Positions 16,339 to 22,778 of a DNA stretch of 35,525 bases are shown here, piece after piece. The position numbers and the translations under genes are program-made. Below the pieces are notes generated by a model. The model made no database searches, was not told where the DNA came from, and was given only the letters and a program-made list of their open reading frames with translations. Source of the stretch: an uncultured SAR86 cluster bacterium (GTDB taxonomy: Bacteria; Pseudomonadota; Gammaproteobacteria; Magnimaribacterales; AG-339-G14); the NCBI GenBank assembly GCA_902589965.1, contig CACIUX010000001.1, forward strand, positions 1 to 35,525, given 5' to 3'. Numbering within the stretch: the first letter of the stretch is position 1; every line of letters starts with the position of its first letter.

Positions 16339-19300
16339 ATGAAGAAACTAATATTACTTTTGGTGATTTTGAGTCCCCTTGGCTACTCTCAATCCTATAA
16401 CGAAGATAAAAAAGAGATTTATACGGCTAATAATGAAGTTGAGAATACTCTAGGCGAAGCCAATAATATTTTATGTACTATTTCAAAACTGAAAGTTGAG
16501 CAATTTATTGATAAAGGTCCTTACAGGGCTCAAGTTTATGATTCCAGATGTGATGTAAGTGCAGCCAGACAAGCGGCACAAAACGCTGCTCAGCAAGGAA
16601 ATCAGCAACAACAAGGTGCGTCAGAAGTAGAAATACCTAGTTCATTTGTTTTAGACGTTAAGTCAGCTTTTAGTGAAGTAAGAAATAAGGATTACATAGA
16701 GGTTAGAGGTTGGTTTTTCCAACAAGGCGATTATTCAGAGGCCCAAGCAGATTATGAAGGAATGTGGGATGCAGAACCCGACATGCTCATTTATTTTCTA
16801 GCGAAAGTTCTTTCAGGTGCAACAGAAGCGGATCCTAATGGAGATATAGAGCTTGATTTCGTGGCCGAGTCGAATTGTCAGAATGCGCCCTATCAAAATG
16901 AAGAAGAAGCCAGGCAAGCTGCCTTAGACGCAGGCGTAGCAGAGGGCACCCAATCTTTTTATAGTGACTACTTGGAACATTATTATAAGTGCCCACCTGC
17001 GGGAGATCAGATGGGGGCAGGCAGATTAGATACAACCGATGCTCAAACTTTATTTCTTGGTCCAAGAGGAAGAAGTATTTTGATGAGTGATAATGCAAAT
17101 GGACGAGATGGAATTTGGAAATCTTATGCTTCCGAGTGTTTCATTGATGGAAAACTTGTTGAGTGGCAAGAAAGACAGGCCGACCCTTCAATCTGTGGAG
17201 AACAAAGTGATGCAAACCCAAACTTTTGGGATGGTGAGCTGATTCTTGCATTTTCCTATGATGAGAACACCAAAGCATCTTGCACAAAATTAGTTGGTGC
17301 AAATAGAAGAACTAGACAAGATAACCAATCTGAACCTGTAATTACACCCGATCTGGAAAATTATCTATCTTATGATTTCAGAACAGATGAATTTCCCTGG
17401 TTGGCTCAACAAGGACCTGCTCAGGGCGTTCAGGAAAAATGTGAATCTACAAATGCAGCGGATGCAAAATTAGCTGTCTGGGAATACGGTCTTTATACCA
17501 CAGCAGATGATCTTCGTTATGACATGAAAAATCCTGGTTTCGAGCTTAAAACAGAAGAGGAATTTACTTCACCTTACGATGATAATAGAACTGAACCAAT
17601 TTATGCTTGGGCTGATTACTGGGGAACACATATTTGGGAAGAAATGAGATCTAATGTTACTGATACGACTGTCTTTAAGAAAGTAAATTCGGATGATACT
17701 TCTTCATACAATTTAAAACAGAGAAAAATGACCCTAAGAAAAATGTCTATCGATAAGGTTTCTTTGAATAGCCTTTCAGGAGTTGAATTAAACCTTCATA
17801 TTGAGTGGGACAGAACTGAGACCGGAGGTAACTGTTGGTGGAATGATTACAAGGTATGGACAGGGACTACTCTTGCAGATAACGATATGGATACTAATTC
17901 AAATGGTGAAGATGATAGATGTCCTATAGAAAGATGGCGAGAATTAGGAGTTCCAACTGAGTCTGTTGATGATAACGGTAACTCTTATAACATATTCTTG
18001 GGTTATTGGGATGCAGCCTATGGTTCTGGTGGAACTGGTCCAGTAGGTGCTTTTGTCTTCGATAGAGCGGTTAAAGAAGTTAACAACAGATGGGTTGCTG
18101 AAATTGACATAACACCATTTACTTTTACGCCTGCAGAATATCTTAAAATTTGGGACGATGACAGAAATAGTGCTAATGGCTATGAAGTTTGGAGAAACTT
18201 GTGGGCACATGGTCGAGGTCAAGGTTATGAAATCAGGGGTGATGCTTTAGCTGCTCCTGCTGATGAGCTAGTGAAGAGAAGAACTGAGAAAGATATAGCT
18301 CCTTCTGAGCTTGCCGGATTGACTTTAGGATGCATCGAGAGATGTCTGTCTGGATCGAGTTTCACAGCATATTTCAATGAAGCATTAGCCTTAATTGCAA
18401 CAGGCACTGAAAATTCTCCAGCTACGGGAACTTTAAGTAATAGTCCTTACTCGAGCCCAGCTTTAGCTGGTGGTGATACTTCAGCTCTTCCAACAGGACC
18501 TTATGTCCGTGCTGGAACTGATAAAGGAAATTGGACACAAGAAGGTGTGTTGTCTAATGAGGTTATGCAATATCAAGTTTCTGGAGAATCAATTGCAGAT
18601 ACGGTTACTAATATACCAATTGTTTTGCCTGCCGGAATGTATGAACTAAATAATCCTTGGAGTAAATTCGAAGGAAATATTTGTATTAAAGAACCCAATG
18701 GTGTTGATACAGACTGCTGGGGTATGAAGAATCACATGACACTTTTTGATATGGCAAAAGCCTCAGAAGTTGAATGTGAAAAAACTCGAGACACCAACAA
18801 TGACGGTAATAAAAATGCTTATGAATATCACTCAGATTCTACTGTTCAGTCATCAGAAAATTTTAGATACTGCAATAGTAAGCTTTGGAAGATGACAGAA
18901 TACTATGAGGTTTTCTGGGATCCTTGGGTAAATTATCAAGTTTATGACTCCAACGGTGCATTAGTTGAAATTTCAAGACCTGAAGCAGTCACCTTAACAC
19001 TTCCCAATGATGAAAGTTTTGGCTCTGATGCTGGAAGGAAAAAGACACTTGAATATGCAGGTTTTGGAAGACTTCATGGTTTTGAATGGACTAACTTTAA
19101 TATTGCAACCTGGACTGAGCTTGGTGAGTACCTTGACTGGGACTCACTCTCAGAAACCGACAGACAAAATACAAGAGGTTTCCCTACTTATGTGATTCCT
19201 GATGGCACTATAGTAATGAGTGAAGACGGAGAAACTGAGCTTAAATCAAAGTTTTTGAGAGGAGAGTATTATCTTAAACCACTACCAGGAGCTGTAGGTC

Positions 19301-19491
19301 AAAATATTTATACTACCTTAGTAACTGGCCTAGACGATGTTCAACCGCAAATTTATGATTCTGCCTTTATTGGAGCAGTGCCAGATGATTCAACACTACT
19401 AAATTCAGGCGAAGTATGTGTTGACCACGGAGAAATTATAGAAGTTTGTAAACAGTTTGCCATTGATGGCACAACGCCGGTCTCAAACTGA
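16339..19491 (+). CDS. Large exported protein (1050 residues), unknown function
   Basis: The ATG at 16339 follows AGGAGA by 5 nt. A Sec signal ([18 protein letters not shown]) precedes a long acidic, Cys-, Trp- and Asp-rich mature chain. A Gln/Ala-rich segment lies near 75-95. A possible thrombospondin-type-3-like calcium stretch [13 protein letters not shown] is at 514-526, and a textbook EF-hand loop [12 protein letters not shown] is at 818-829. Many cysteines suggest disulfides and a periplasmic or surface location. No catalytic domain or transmembrane anchor is recognisable, and no internal large repeat was seen. G+C seems a little above the neighbours. It sits with the lipoprotein gene between merR and tRNA-Pro, and ends 7 nt before the tRNA. 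I do not recognise the family. Confidence 0.85.
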
Positions 19492-19498
19492 TTTATTT

Positions 19499-19575
19499 CG
19501 GGGCGTGGCGCAGTCTGGTAGCGCACTTGACTGGGGGTCAAGTGGTCGCTGGTTCAAATCCAGCCGTCCCGACCA
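19499..19575 (+). tRNA. tRNA-Pro (anticodon GGG)
   Basis: A complete cloverleaf can be drawn. Acceptor stem 19499-19505 pairs with 19565-19571 (one G-U). The D stem is GCGC/GCGC at 19508-19511 and 19521-19524, the anticodon stem CTTGA/TCAAG at 19526-19530 and 19538-19542 with GGG at 19533-19535, and the T arm GCTGG-TTCAAAT-CCAGC at 19548-19564. The CCA end is encoded (19573-19575). It lies 7 nt after the large exported protein gene and 8 nt before the next start, so it is probably cut out of a longer transcript. In Pseudomonas a tRNA-Pro follows the ihfA-merR pair (from memory), matching this locus. Confidence 0.97.
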
Positions 19576-19583
19576 AATGAAAT

Positions 19584-20756
19584 ATGGATAGGGAATATCA
19601 AATAATTTTATACGGTGCCACCGGATTTACTGGAAGGCTCTGTGCAGAGTACCTAAGGGATAATTATCCCGAAATTGAATGGGCAATTGCTGGTCGCAAT
19701 GAGCAAAAACTAGAAGATCTCAAAAATTCATTGAGACTGAATTGTAAAATTTTCGTTGCTGATGGAGAAGATTGTCATTCAATCGATCATTTTGTTAGTA
19801 AAACAAAAGTAGTGTTGTCTACTGCAGGTCCTTTCGTCAGATATAGTAATTTAGTAGTCAAATCTTGTGTTGAAAATAAAACACATTACACAGACATAAC
19901 CGGAGAAAATCATTGGGTAAAGGACTTAATTGATGAATATCATGAAAAAGCTTCTGAAAATGGAATAAGAATAATACCCTCATGTGGTTACGATTCTATA
20001 CCATCAGATATGGGTGTTTTTTATTCAGTTCAGCAAATGGCAAAACCTGTAAAGAAAATAACAGTTTTTCACTCGGGTCAAGGAGGAGTTAGCGGAGGGA
20101 CGACTGAAACAATGTTTACTATTGGTCCATTACCTAAGGAAAAAAGAGATCCTTTTCTTTTAAATCCTGAGAACAGTGTTACTGAAAAACAAAGAAAGCT
20201 CAGCAAAGATGGTTTTGAAATAAAACAAATTGAAAATACAGATTCATATTCAGGAATTGGATTAATGTCTTTTGCCAATACAAGAGTCGTAAGACGTAGT
20301 TCAGCATTATATGATGCCGATCAAAGAGGTTATGGTTCTGATTTTATTTTCAAAGAGCTTGGAAGTTATCCCTCAAAAAGATCAGCAAGATTGGCCAGTT
20401 TCGGACTTATATTTGCTTTTTTAGTAATCTCAACACCCTTAAGGCACATTGTTAGGCGATTTCTACCTCAGCCTGGCGATGGTCCAGATAAGGAAACTAG
20501 AGAAAATGGTTGGTTCAAAGGATTATTTAAAGTTGAAGCTGAAGATGGTGAAATCAAATTTTTTCAAATCTATGGAGATGGAGATCCAGGTTATAAAGCA
20601 ACTGCACAAATGGTTTGTGAGTCTGCTATGACACTAGCAATTTCTGATGAACTCGTTGCAGGAGGAGTTTTAACTTCAGCTTATGGGCTTGGCAATCCAC
20701 TTTTAGACAGGCTAATTAATTCTGGTATAAAATTTGAAGAAGTCATTTATAACTAA
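19584..20756 (+). CDS. Saccharopine dehydrogenase-like reductase (SCCPDH/trans-acting enoyl reductase family)
   Basis: 390 residues. The N-terminal Rossmann domain begins [12 protein letters not shown] (GATGFTG at 11-17) and continues [10 protein letters not shown], then [13 protein letters not shown] and [12 protein letters not shown], the family pattern. A hydrophobic segment at about 274-292 ([19 protein letters not shown]) may attach it to membrane. The C-terminal part ([13 protein letters not shown]...[11 protein letters not shown]) is also conserved in this family. Members include mycobacterial enoyl reductases and lipid-droplet proteins; lysine metabolism is not implied. The substrate is unknown, a lipid being likely. 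Start at 19584 chosen as the first in-frame ATG after the tRNA. Confidence 0.83.
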
Positions 20757-20777
20757 AGATTAGCACTTTATAACTTC

Positions 20778-20942
20778 AACCTACCTTTTTTTTATATAGA
20801 ATGCATTTGTTCAGGCAATCTTTCTCCCCCATAATCTCTCCTATTACCTGAACATGGCGGGTTTAATAGACCCGCCAATTTATGGTAGGTTAGTGGGTAT
20901 TAATTTTAATAGGTTGGGCGAAATATTCTCGCTGATCTACCA
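20778..20942 (+). ncRNA. Candidate structured RNA / switch-like leader upstream of the photolyase gene
   Basis: The 194-bp gap before the photolyase gene folds into a three-way junction. P1 is AACCTACC (20778-20785) with GGTAGGTT (20884-20891), 8 perfect pairs. P2 is GTTCAGGCAAT (20809-20819) with ATTACCTGAAC (20843-20853), 10 of 11 pairs, with a 23-nt pyrimidine-rich loop. P3 is GGCGGGT/ACCCGCC (20856-20862, 20870-20876). A further small hairpin lies at 20917-20933. TGGTAG (20883-20888) can instead pair with CTACCA (20937-20942) 8 nt before the start codon, which excludes P1. No known RNA family was recognised, and the transcribed strand is not certain. Confidence 0.4.
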
Positions 20943-20950
20943 CCATTTTT

Positions 20951-22351
20951 ATGAACCTTTTCATTTTTTCAGACGATCTAAGAATAAAAGACAATAGGGC
21001 GCTTTATGAAGCTTCTCTAGACCAAGATGGTTTGGTTGCCTTATTTATTATTGATAAAACAAAAAATAAAGCTCATGGAGATAGCTCAGCTAAGTTAAAA
21101 CTAAAACTTTTAGGGCTAGAAAAAATCACTGAACCTTTGAGTTCTTTAAATATTTCATTGAAAATTTTATATTCTCATAAAATTTCAGATGAGCCTGGAG
21201 ATATTGTAGATTTCTGTAAGTCGCATGGAATCAAAAAAATTTTTTTAAATTCTGAATATCCATTCAACGAAAAACAAAGAAATAAAAATTTAAAGAAAAT
21301 CTGTCATCAATACCAAATATCCTACAGAGAATTTAATTCTCAACTTATTAACCCTGACGACGTTAGAAATAGTTCTGGGCTTCCTTTTAAAGTTTTTACT
21401 CCTTATTCAAAAAAAATAAGATCTTTGATGACGCCAGATATTCTCAGCGAGACTCCTGTTCCTCTGAAGCAAGAAAATAGAATAATTGTTCAAGATGAGA
21501 TTCCCCAATTCCAGCATGCTTATGATCAGAATCTTAACTTTTCGTTCGATGATTTCCCATTAACAGAAGGTTCTGCAATTCAAAAGCTAGATGATTTCAT
21601 AGATTCTTCAATTCAAAACTATAAAGAATTGAGGGATATTCCAAGTTTATCTGCAACAAGTAAATTATCCTCTTCATTTGCAATAGGTTTGATTTCCTCA
21701 AAACAAGCCATAAATCTAGTGCTCGAGAGGCTTCCAGATGAAATTGGGACCGGCCAATTTGCGTGGATTACAGAAATAATATGGAGAGAGTTTTATAAGT
21801 ACATTACTTATCACTTCTCACATGTGTCAAAGGGGAAATGTTTTAATCCAAAATATGATCATATTTTGTGGAGAGAAGATGAAGAATCCTTCCTTAAATG
21901 GTGTGAAGGAAAAACTGGAGTGCCAATTATTGATGCAGCTATGAGACAGCTGAATGAAACTAAATGGATGCACAATCGATTAAGGATGATAACGGCCATG
22001 TTTCTTAGCAAAAACTTATTAGTAGATTGGAGAAAAGGTGAAAGGTACTTCATGGAAAACCTGATAGATGGTGATTTTTGTTCGAATAATGGTGGTTGGC
22101 AATGGAGTGCATCTACTGGAGTAGACGCATCACCTTATTTTAGAATTTTTAATCCAATTACACAGTCCGTAAAATTTGATCCTGATGGAAAATTTATTAA
22201 AGAATTTGTACCTGAATTAATTGACCTTCCATCTAATGAGATACATAACCCTTCTAAAGAAATTAGATCATCTTTAAACTATCCAGAAATGATTGTAGAC
22301 TTGAAGACTTCAAGACTTAGAGCGATAGATGCATTTAAATCAATCAAATAA
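20951..22351 (+). CDS. phrB: Deoxyribodipyrimidine photolyase (class I CPD photolyase/cryptochrome family)
   Basis: 466 residues. The N-terminal alpha/beta domain starts FIFSDDLRIKDNRAL, the place of the FRxDLRxxDN motif. The FAD-binding C-terminal half holds WREFYKYITYHF, GKTGVPIIDAAMRQL, WMHNRLRMITAMFLSKNLLVDWR, and GGWQWSASTGVDASPYFRIFNP, with the tryptophans used for flavin photoreduction. It repairs cyclobutane pyrimidine dimers with blue light, in keeping with a sunlit habitat. A cryptochrome-like role cannot be fully excluded. There is no Shine-Dalgarno sequence before the ATG; the candidate leader RNA lies immediately upstream. Confidence 0.93.
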   Translation: MNLFIFSDDLRIKDNRALYEASLDQDGLVALFIIDKTKNKAHGDSSAKLKLKLLGLEKITEPLSSLNISLKILYSHKISDEPGDIVDFCKSHGIKKIFLNSEYPFNEKQRNKNLKKICHQYQISYREFNSQLINPDDVRNSSGLPFKVFTPYSKKIRSLMTPDILSETPVPLKQENRIIVQDEIPQFQHAYDQNLNFSFDDFPLTEGSAIQKLDDFIDSSIQNYKELRDIPSLSATSKLSSSFAIGLISSKQAINLVLERLPDEIGTGQFAWITEIIWREFYKYITYHFSHVSKGKCFNPKYDHILWREDEESFLKWCEGKTGVPIIDAAMRQLNETKWMHNRLRMITAMFLSKNLLVDWRKGERYFMENLIDGDFCSNNGGWQWSASTGVDASPYFRIFNPITQSVKFDPDGKFIKEFVPELIDLPSNEIHNPSKEIRSSLNYPEMIVDLKTSRLRAIDAFKSIK

Positions 22352-22778
22352 CTCAGATAATAGACCAGTCTATCTAGATATATTCAATGCCAAGGTTGAG
22401 AAAGTAGATAAGGCTAAAGAAACTCTCTCAATGAGCTTTGAAGCTTCATCAGACTTTTGCCACACTGGAGGAAGAATCCTTCAAGGTGGTTTCGTTGCCA
22501 CTATGCTTGATTGTTCAATGGCTTTTCTTGCATTTGAGTTAACGGATTATGAAAAATCTCCAATGACGATTGATATGAATATCAATTATTTATCATCAGG
22601 CGCTCCTGGCAAATATTTAGCTAGAGCAAAAGTTACTAAGATTGGAAAATCAATTGGATTTCTTTCTTCAGAATTATTTCAAGACGATAAATTAATTGCC
22701 TCAGCTACTTGCACAGCAAAAATGGCAGATATTAATAAAAAATACCTGAAGCAGATGAAAGATACTGTAAGAAAATAA
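22329..22778 (+). CDS. PaaI-like hotdog thioesterase
   Basis: 149 residues with the 4HBT fold: HTGGRILQGGFVATMLDCSMAFLA carries the usual G-G-x-x-A/T-x-x-D pattern on the central helix, followed by TIDMNINYLSSGAPG and ARAKVTKIGKSIGFLSSEL. Such enzymes hydrolyse acyl-CoA thioesters. The start overlaps the photolyase gene by 23 bp, indicating co-transcription. The 3' end stops 1 bp short of the converging acyl-CoA dehydrogenase gene. Confidence 0.87.
   Translation: MHLNQSNNSDNRPVYLDIFNAKVEKVDKAKETLSMSFEASSDFCHTGGRILQGGFVATMLDCSMAFLAFELTDYEKSPMTIDMNINYLSSGAPGKYLARAKVTKIGKSIGFLSSELFQDDKLIASATCTAKMADINKKYLKQMKDTVRK

Follow-up and report, generated by a model that had tools for sequence, protein, structure and literature searches.

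The hairpins of alpha-r14 sRNAs have stems that diverge and share an identical CCUCCUCCC motif; these sRNAs act at the ribosome-binding site of mRNAs, which they silence (PMC10746234). CcsR sRNAs are part of the photooxidative stress response in Rhodobacter, where a photolyase gene is a target of RpoE (PMC8307010). Yfr1 of marine cyanobacteria combines a 5' stem-loop, a conserved pyrimidine motif and a 3' terminator hairpin (PMC2190773), and RepG of Helicobacter pylori is a trans-acting sRNA that pairs with a G-rich 5' UTR in a host without Hfq or ProQ (PMC8322730). Here we describe an RNA encoded upstream of the photolyase gene phr in an uncultured SAR86 cluster bacterium which, on present evidence, appears to work like alpha-r14/Cuckoo, Yfr1 and RepG while being a member of none. 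CcsR carries the alpha-r14/Cuckoo motif, and the loop of RepG is pyrimidine-rich.

The window, the whole stretch of 35,525 nucleotides that was analysed, has a GC content of 35% and is part of a 1.12-Mb assembly (G000). Four families of the order were among those searched, namely the window's own (f1), its sister f2, f3 and f4, and many of the compared genomes are incomplete. With moderate confidence, we read the region before phr as encoding an independent, structured plus-strand sRNA that would act in trans through anti-Shine-Dalgarno (anti-SD)-type loops and without Hfq.

Stem-loops in the gap upstream of phr

The gap spans positions 20757-20950 and measures 194 bp, as the earlier note had claimed. 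It is flanked by a saccharopine-dehydrogenase-like gene and by phr (20951-22351, plus strand), which encodes a DNA photolyase (FAD_binding_7 and DNA_photolyase in Pfam) and is directly followed in the window by a 4HBT thioesterase gene (22329-22778, plus strand; Pfam). An HU/IHF-like gene, merR and a tRNA-Pro(GGG) (19499-19575, plus strand; ARAGORN) lie upstream on the same strand. A 1050-aa protein without Pfam match is encoded between merR and the tRNA (16339-19491), and a strong SD sequence in front of its gene, taggagaaacATG, is complementary to the loop of the RNA described below. DNA searches recovered the gap in seven same-genus genomes at 90-96% identity, and a 49-base core of it also in a second genus. 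When the region upstream of phr was compared in 21 genomes, a common architecture emerged in all four f1 genera (g1 to g4), consisting, in order, of a TATAACY direct repeat, a pyrimidine-loop hairpin (SL-A) and a second hairpin (SL-B).

The plus strand of the gap folded better than 200 of 200 shuffles (z = -3.5), and the 74-nt piece comprising SL-A and SL-B reached a z of -5.2. The earlier note had drawn a three-way junction, in which a helix P1 closes over helices P2 and P3. P2 (GTTCAGG/CCTGAAC) and P3 (GGCGGGTTT/AGACCCGCC) exist and correspond to SL-A and SL-B; they covary, with compensatory changes at 13 of 17 pairs and 95.7% of cells paired in 29 sequences. Shuffling this alignment never gave as much pairing or as much covariation, and slid registers stayed far below. 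P1, formed by AACCTACC (20778-20785, plus strand) and GGTAGGTT (20884-20891), showed zero compensatory changes. Across eight same-genus sequences its 3' strand was invariant and its 5' strand drifted, so that 78% of cells were paired, four of the eight pairs broke often and the helix was intact in the window only. The 5' strand lies outside the RNA structure and, being upstream of the -10-like box TATAGAAT, is probably promoter DNA outside the transcript. Conservation of the 3' strand, GGTAG, reflects its use as the 5' side of a third stem-loop, SL-C.

The helix of GGTAG with CTACC, which had been put forward as an alternative to P1, is real, longer (10 pairs) and strongly covarying; its alternation with P1 found no support. 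Since P1 is uncompensated and the SL-C helix covaries, this copy has neither a three-way junction nor a supported fold switch, and the plus-strand RNA is a row of stem-loops. The two mutually exclusive folds are not conserved. Minimum free energy and centroid folds of the window copy alone disagree, and the competing folds are a peculiarity of this single sequence.

SL-A (20809-20853, plus strand) has a covarying stem (20809-20815 with 20847-20853) that is unrelated between genera, around an invariant loop. This loop reads UUUCUCCCC (20821-20829, plus strand) followed by AUCUCUCC (20834-20841, plus strand), or close variants, in all copies, and is unpaired in the predicted fold of the window copy. 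The tracts UCUUUCUCCCC and AUCUCUCC singled out in the earlier note are thus present, and are conserved although the stems diverge. In SL-A, evolution has kept the loop fixed and not the stem.

SL-B, the hairpin TGGCGGGTTTAATAGACCCGCCA (20855-20877, plus strand), covaries and was called terminator-like. It is an intrinsic terminator in relatives, with a strong U-tract in g3 and most of g4; the U-tract is poor in the window genome (ATTTATGG).

SL-C (20884-20945, plus strand) consists of a closing helix (20884-20893 with 20932-20941), a core GUUGGGC (20913-20919) and a 3' ACCA. In an alignment spanning two families, 160 of 160 cells of the closing helix were paired, with both-side changes at 8 of its 10 pairs, and the core UUGGGC was invariant within the covarying stem. 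A small ORF in SL-C (ATG-ATG in g2 and g3) was rejected, as its frames break within genera (an early stop in L045 and L047, a 2-nt deletion in L058) and the helix is kept. A tRNA-like 3' end, considered for the ACCA behind the stem, was rejected also, the ends varying to GCCA, AUCA and ACCC.

A direct repeat, ATAACT-N14-TATAAC in a 21-bp register (20749-20774, plus strand), is a putative upstream promoter element. It is kept at the locus in all four f1 genera, and in each g1 genome having the locus it is the sole match of the pattern. A TATAACY-repeat regulon was considered and rejected, as other sites per genome were no commoner than those of a reversed control pattern. The -10-like box TATAGAAT (20795-20802, plus strand) is conserved in g1 and g4 as TATAGAAT/TATA[AC]AAT; a simple sigma-70 scan did not pick up this box, and the promoter there therefore counts as putative.

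Read on the plus strand, the paired columns hold 147 G-T cells versus 11 A-C cells. Wobble pairs tolerated on the plus strand would be mismatches on the minus strand. This bias is matched by the U-tracts of the terminator and by the conserved box upstream, and together they show by computation that the RNA lies on the plus strand. A minus-strand transcript would be CsrB/RsmZ-like, its hairpin loops presenting GGA motifs; the reverse complement does fold equally well, and its loop shows AGGAGA and GGGGGAGA. We discarded this candidate on the wobble bias of 147 to 11 and, with the promoter-like and terminator features also sitting on the plus strand, consider it highly improbable.

Distribution of the RNA and its relation to phr

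Genomes were searched with model R1 (SL-A and SL-B), model R2 (SL-C) and model R3 (SL-C with f2 copies added). R1 gave one strong match per genome in 36 of 40 f1 genomes, where the RNA adjoins phr; the negative f1 genomes have partial phr matches only (G002, G061, G017) or no phr of this type (G021). Beyond f1, neither the rest of the order nor 369 genomes of the class yielded a convincing R1 match. The only match at E 1e-4 outside f1 among these 369 was rejected, as it lies inside an ORF of a pilin-like cluster, and five of six inspected weak R1 matches in f2 and f3 (E 0.01-0.1) were dismissed as lying in coding-looking stretches. The sixth (G086) led to a different sRNA. A pattern scan of the species collection returned 20 scattered matches, about the number due to chance (about 15 by our own estimate, given 17.5 specified bases and 257 Gb of sequence). 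In Rfam, no family matched at gathering score and there was no credible weak match.

R2 gave weak matches in the sister family f2. From their sequence these proved to be the same RNA, with the SL-A loop and a middle hairpin upstream of SL-C. R3 found a single SL-C per genome in the f2 genera g8, g12 and g13, and in g5 a weak match (E 0.068) with the SL-A loop alongside. It found no SL-C in eight f4 genomes, and its matches in f3 were rejected as not credible. As R1 matches to f2 were individually weak (best E 0.013), it is mainly SL-C, the loop motif and synteny that argue for homology of the f1 and f2 RNAs.

The SL-A loop of f2 reads UUCUCCCC followed by CCUCC or CCUCUCC, and the genomes of g12 and g5 have a single SL-A, those of g8 and g13 a tandem pair with the same loop. 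Each unit of the tandem copies (L202-L211, L213 and L214) can form a true three-way junction, its stem enclosing the mini-hairpins UUCU-CCCC-AGAA and ACCU-CUCCA-AGGU. The f2 middle hairpin lies between SL-A and SL-C and may be homologous to that of f1, with position as the sole basis. It carries conserved UCACCCA and AGCUGC (e.g. L194:829-890), complementary to UGGG and GCAGC of SL-C, and a loop-loop contact between the two is possible.

The RNA precedes phr in f1, and the f2 copies are not beside phr. In g12, merR and tRNA-Pro(GGG) immediately precede the RNA, and the next gene downstream is convergent and encodes a TPP enzyme. In g8 and g13 a 4HBT thioesterase gene is often directly behind it (39% identity to the window's post-phr thioesterase in the two sequences tested); the other f2 genes in this position encode a hydroxyacid dehydrogenase, a beta-lactamase-fold protein or an SDR protein. 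The phr genes of f2, f3 and f4 are elsewhere and, in the cases examined, nearly always follow other genes immediately, without a comparable gap. The stand-alone SL-A and SL-C of f2 argue that this is an independent RNA gene and not ancestrally a phr leader. On the simplest reading, the RNA gene would predate its association with phr, and phr would have either arrived between RNA and thioesterase in f1 or been lost there in f2. The RNA is no obligatory phr leader, whichever history holds.

These results bear on the riboswitch-like phr leader with mutually exclusive helices proposed in the earlier note, which fails because P1 is unconserved and the f2 RNA is not by phr. In a wider form, the RNA would be the 5' UTR of phr, a cis-acting leader with attenuation at SL-B and with SL-C masking the start region. 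The RNA is indeed always ahead of phr in f1, in g1-g3 a stretch of 5-10 nt separates the end of SL-C from the phr start codon, and the g3 terminator abuts SL-C, so that an SL-C-bearing phr mRNA must be a readthrough product there. Against this, the f2 RNA is away from phr and f2 phr lacks such a leader, f1 g4 has phr without SL-C, and the switch between P1 and its alternative is unconserved; we regard a cis leader as unlikely. As SL-C ends so close to the start codon in g1-g3, it may nevertheless have a secondary effect in cis on the f1 phr.

Proposed anti-SD-type loops and possible protein binding

The trans-acting sRNA with anti-SD-like loops, which the earlier note had also raised, draws support from the conserved loop and covarying stems, and further from the terminator in relatives, the wobble strand bias and the stand-alone f2 copies. 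Such an sRNA would start at the putative promoter made up of the conserved TATAACY repeat and TATAGAAT; in g3 and g4 it would end for the most part at SL-B, in f2 past SL-C. The loop tracts UUUCUCC and AUCUCUCC would then pair in trans with GGAG-containing ribosome-binding sites and so repress or tune a set of mRNAs, with no need for Hfq. In f1, where phr is directly behind the RNA, readthrough would yield mRNA whose SL-C falls within the ribosome footprint of phr.

SD-like motifs precede 8 of 31 genes in the window, and an anti-SD mechanism would therefore reach a minority of genes. GGAGAAA, complementary to seven nucleotides of the loop (UUUCUCC), stands before the start codon in two of these eight; phr has none. 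The bipartite complement, used as a target pattern, matched only the locus itself. Hfq (PF17209) was detected in none of 41 genomes of the order, 5 of 14 control genomes being positive.

The anti-SD model leaves the invariant SL-C core without a role. Its main rival is a protein-titrating RNA, in which the repeated hairpin loops and the SL-C core would bind and sponge a regulatory protein. The tandem loop units of f2 g8 and g13 fit such a sponge, and an invariant core within a covarying stem would suit a protein or ligand site. However, f1 has a single unit, no protein partner is known, and the complementarity of the tracts to ribosome-binding sites would be superfluous; we hold titration to be doubtful. 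An improbable dual-function reading would have SL-C bind a protein or ligand, with the f1 RNA serving both as a trans-acting sRNA and as a translational switch for phr.

Taken as a trans-acting anti-SD sRNA, the RNA shares with the alpha-r14/Cuckoo sRNAs of Alphaproteobacteria (NfeR1, CcsR) diverging stems and ultraconserved C-rich anti-SD loops. The combination that defines alpha-r14 hairpins, diverging stems with an identical C-rich loop, is found in SL-A, and the unit is doubled in f2. The alpha-r14/Cuckoo sRNAs belong to a different bacterial class, have no counterpart of SL-C and carry CCUCCUCCC, whereas the present loop reads UUUCUCCCC followed by AUCUCUCC; CcsR moreover interacts with Hfq, which is absent from the present genomes. 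Like Yfr1, the present RNA is short, single-copy and kept in streamlined marine genomes (PMC2190773). Yfr1 differs in sequence and lineage, lacks SL-C and has its motif, ACUCCUCACAC, between hairpins, whereas the present tracts lie in the SL-A loop. The CCUCCUCCC motif is absent from unpaired regions of the present RNA copies, as is the Yfr1 undecanucleotide ACUCCUCACAC from this RNA; with both motifs absent and no Rfam model matching, it is a member of neither alpha-r14 nor Yfr1. The target of RepG is a variable homopolymeric G-repeat, and RepG is unrelated to the present RNA in sequence and lineage.

The RNA family is new to Rfam, and two families of streamlined bacteria conserve it. Free-living bacteria with streamlined genomes possess few transcription factors. 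Given this scarcity and the lack of a detectable Hfq, an sRNA kept in nearly every f1 genome likely matters. The RNA can be sought in existing marine metatranscriptomes. It points to another lineage whose anti-SD-type sRNAs with pyrimidine loops seem to act Hfq-free, and would document a gene, phr, settling directly behind an older RNA gene.

A different candidate sRNA was seen in g17 of f3 (loci L111-L115 in G086, G080, G077, G098 and G091, at about 1450-1720 on the matching strand). It shows a UUCCCCC loop twice and a hairpin GAAGGGTCTTTAATTAGACCCTTC, and the box TTGGCAC/T-N5-TTGCAT upstream of it resembles a sigma-54 promoter. This sRNA is a possible functional counterpart in f3, a family without the present RNA.
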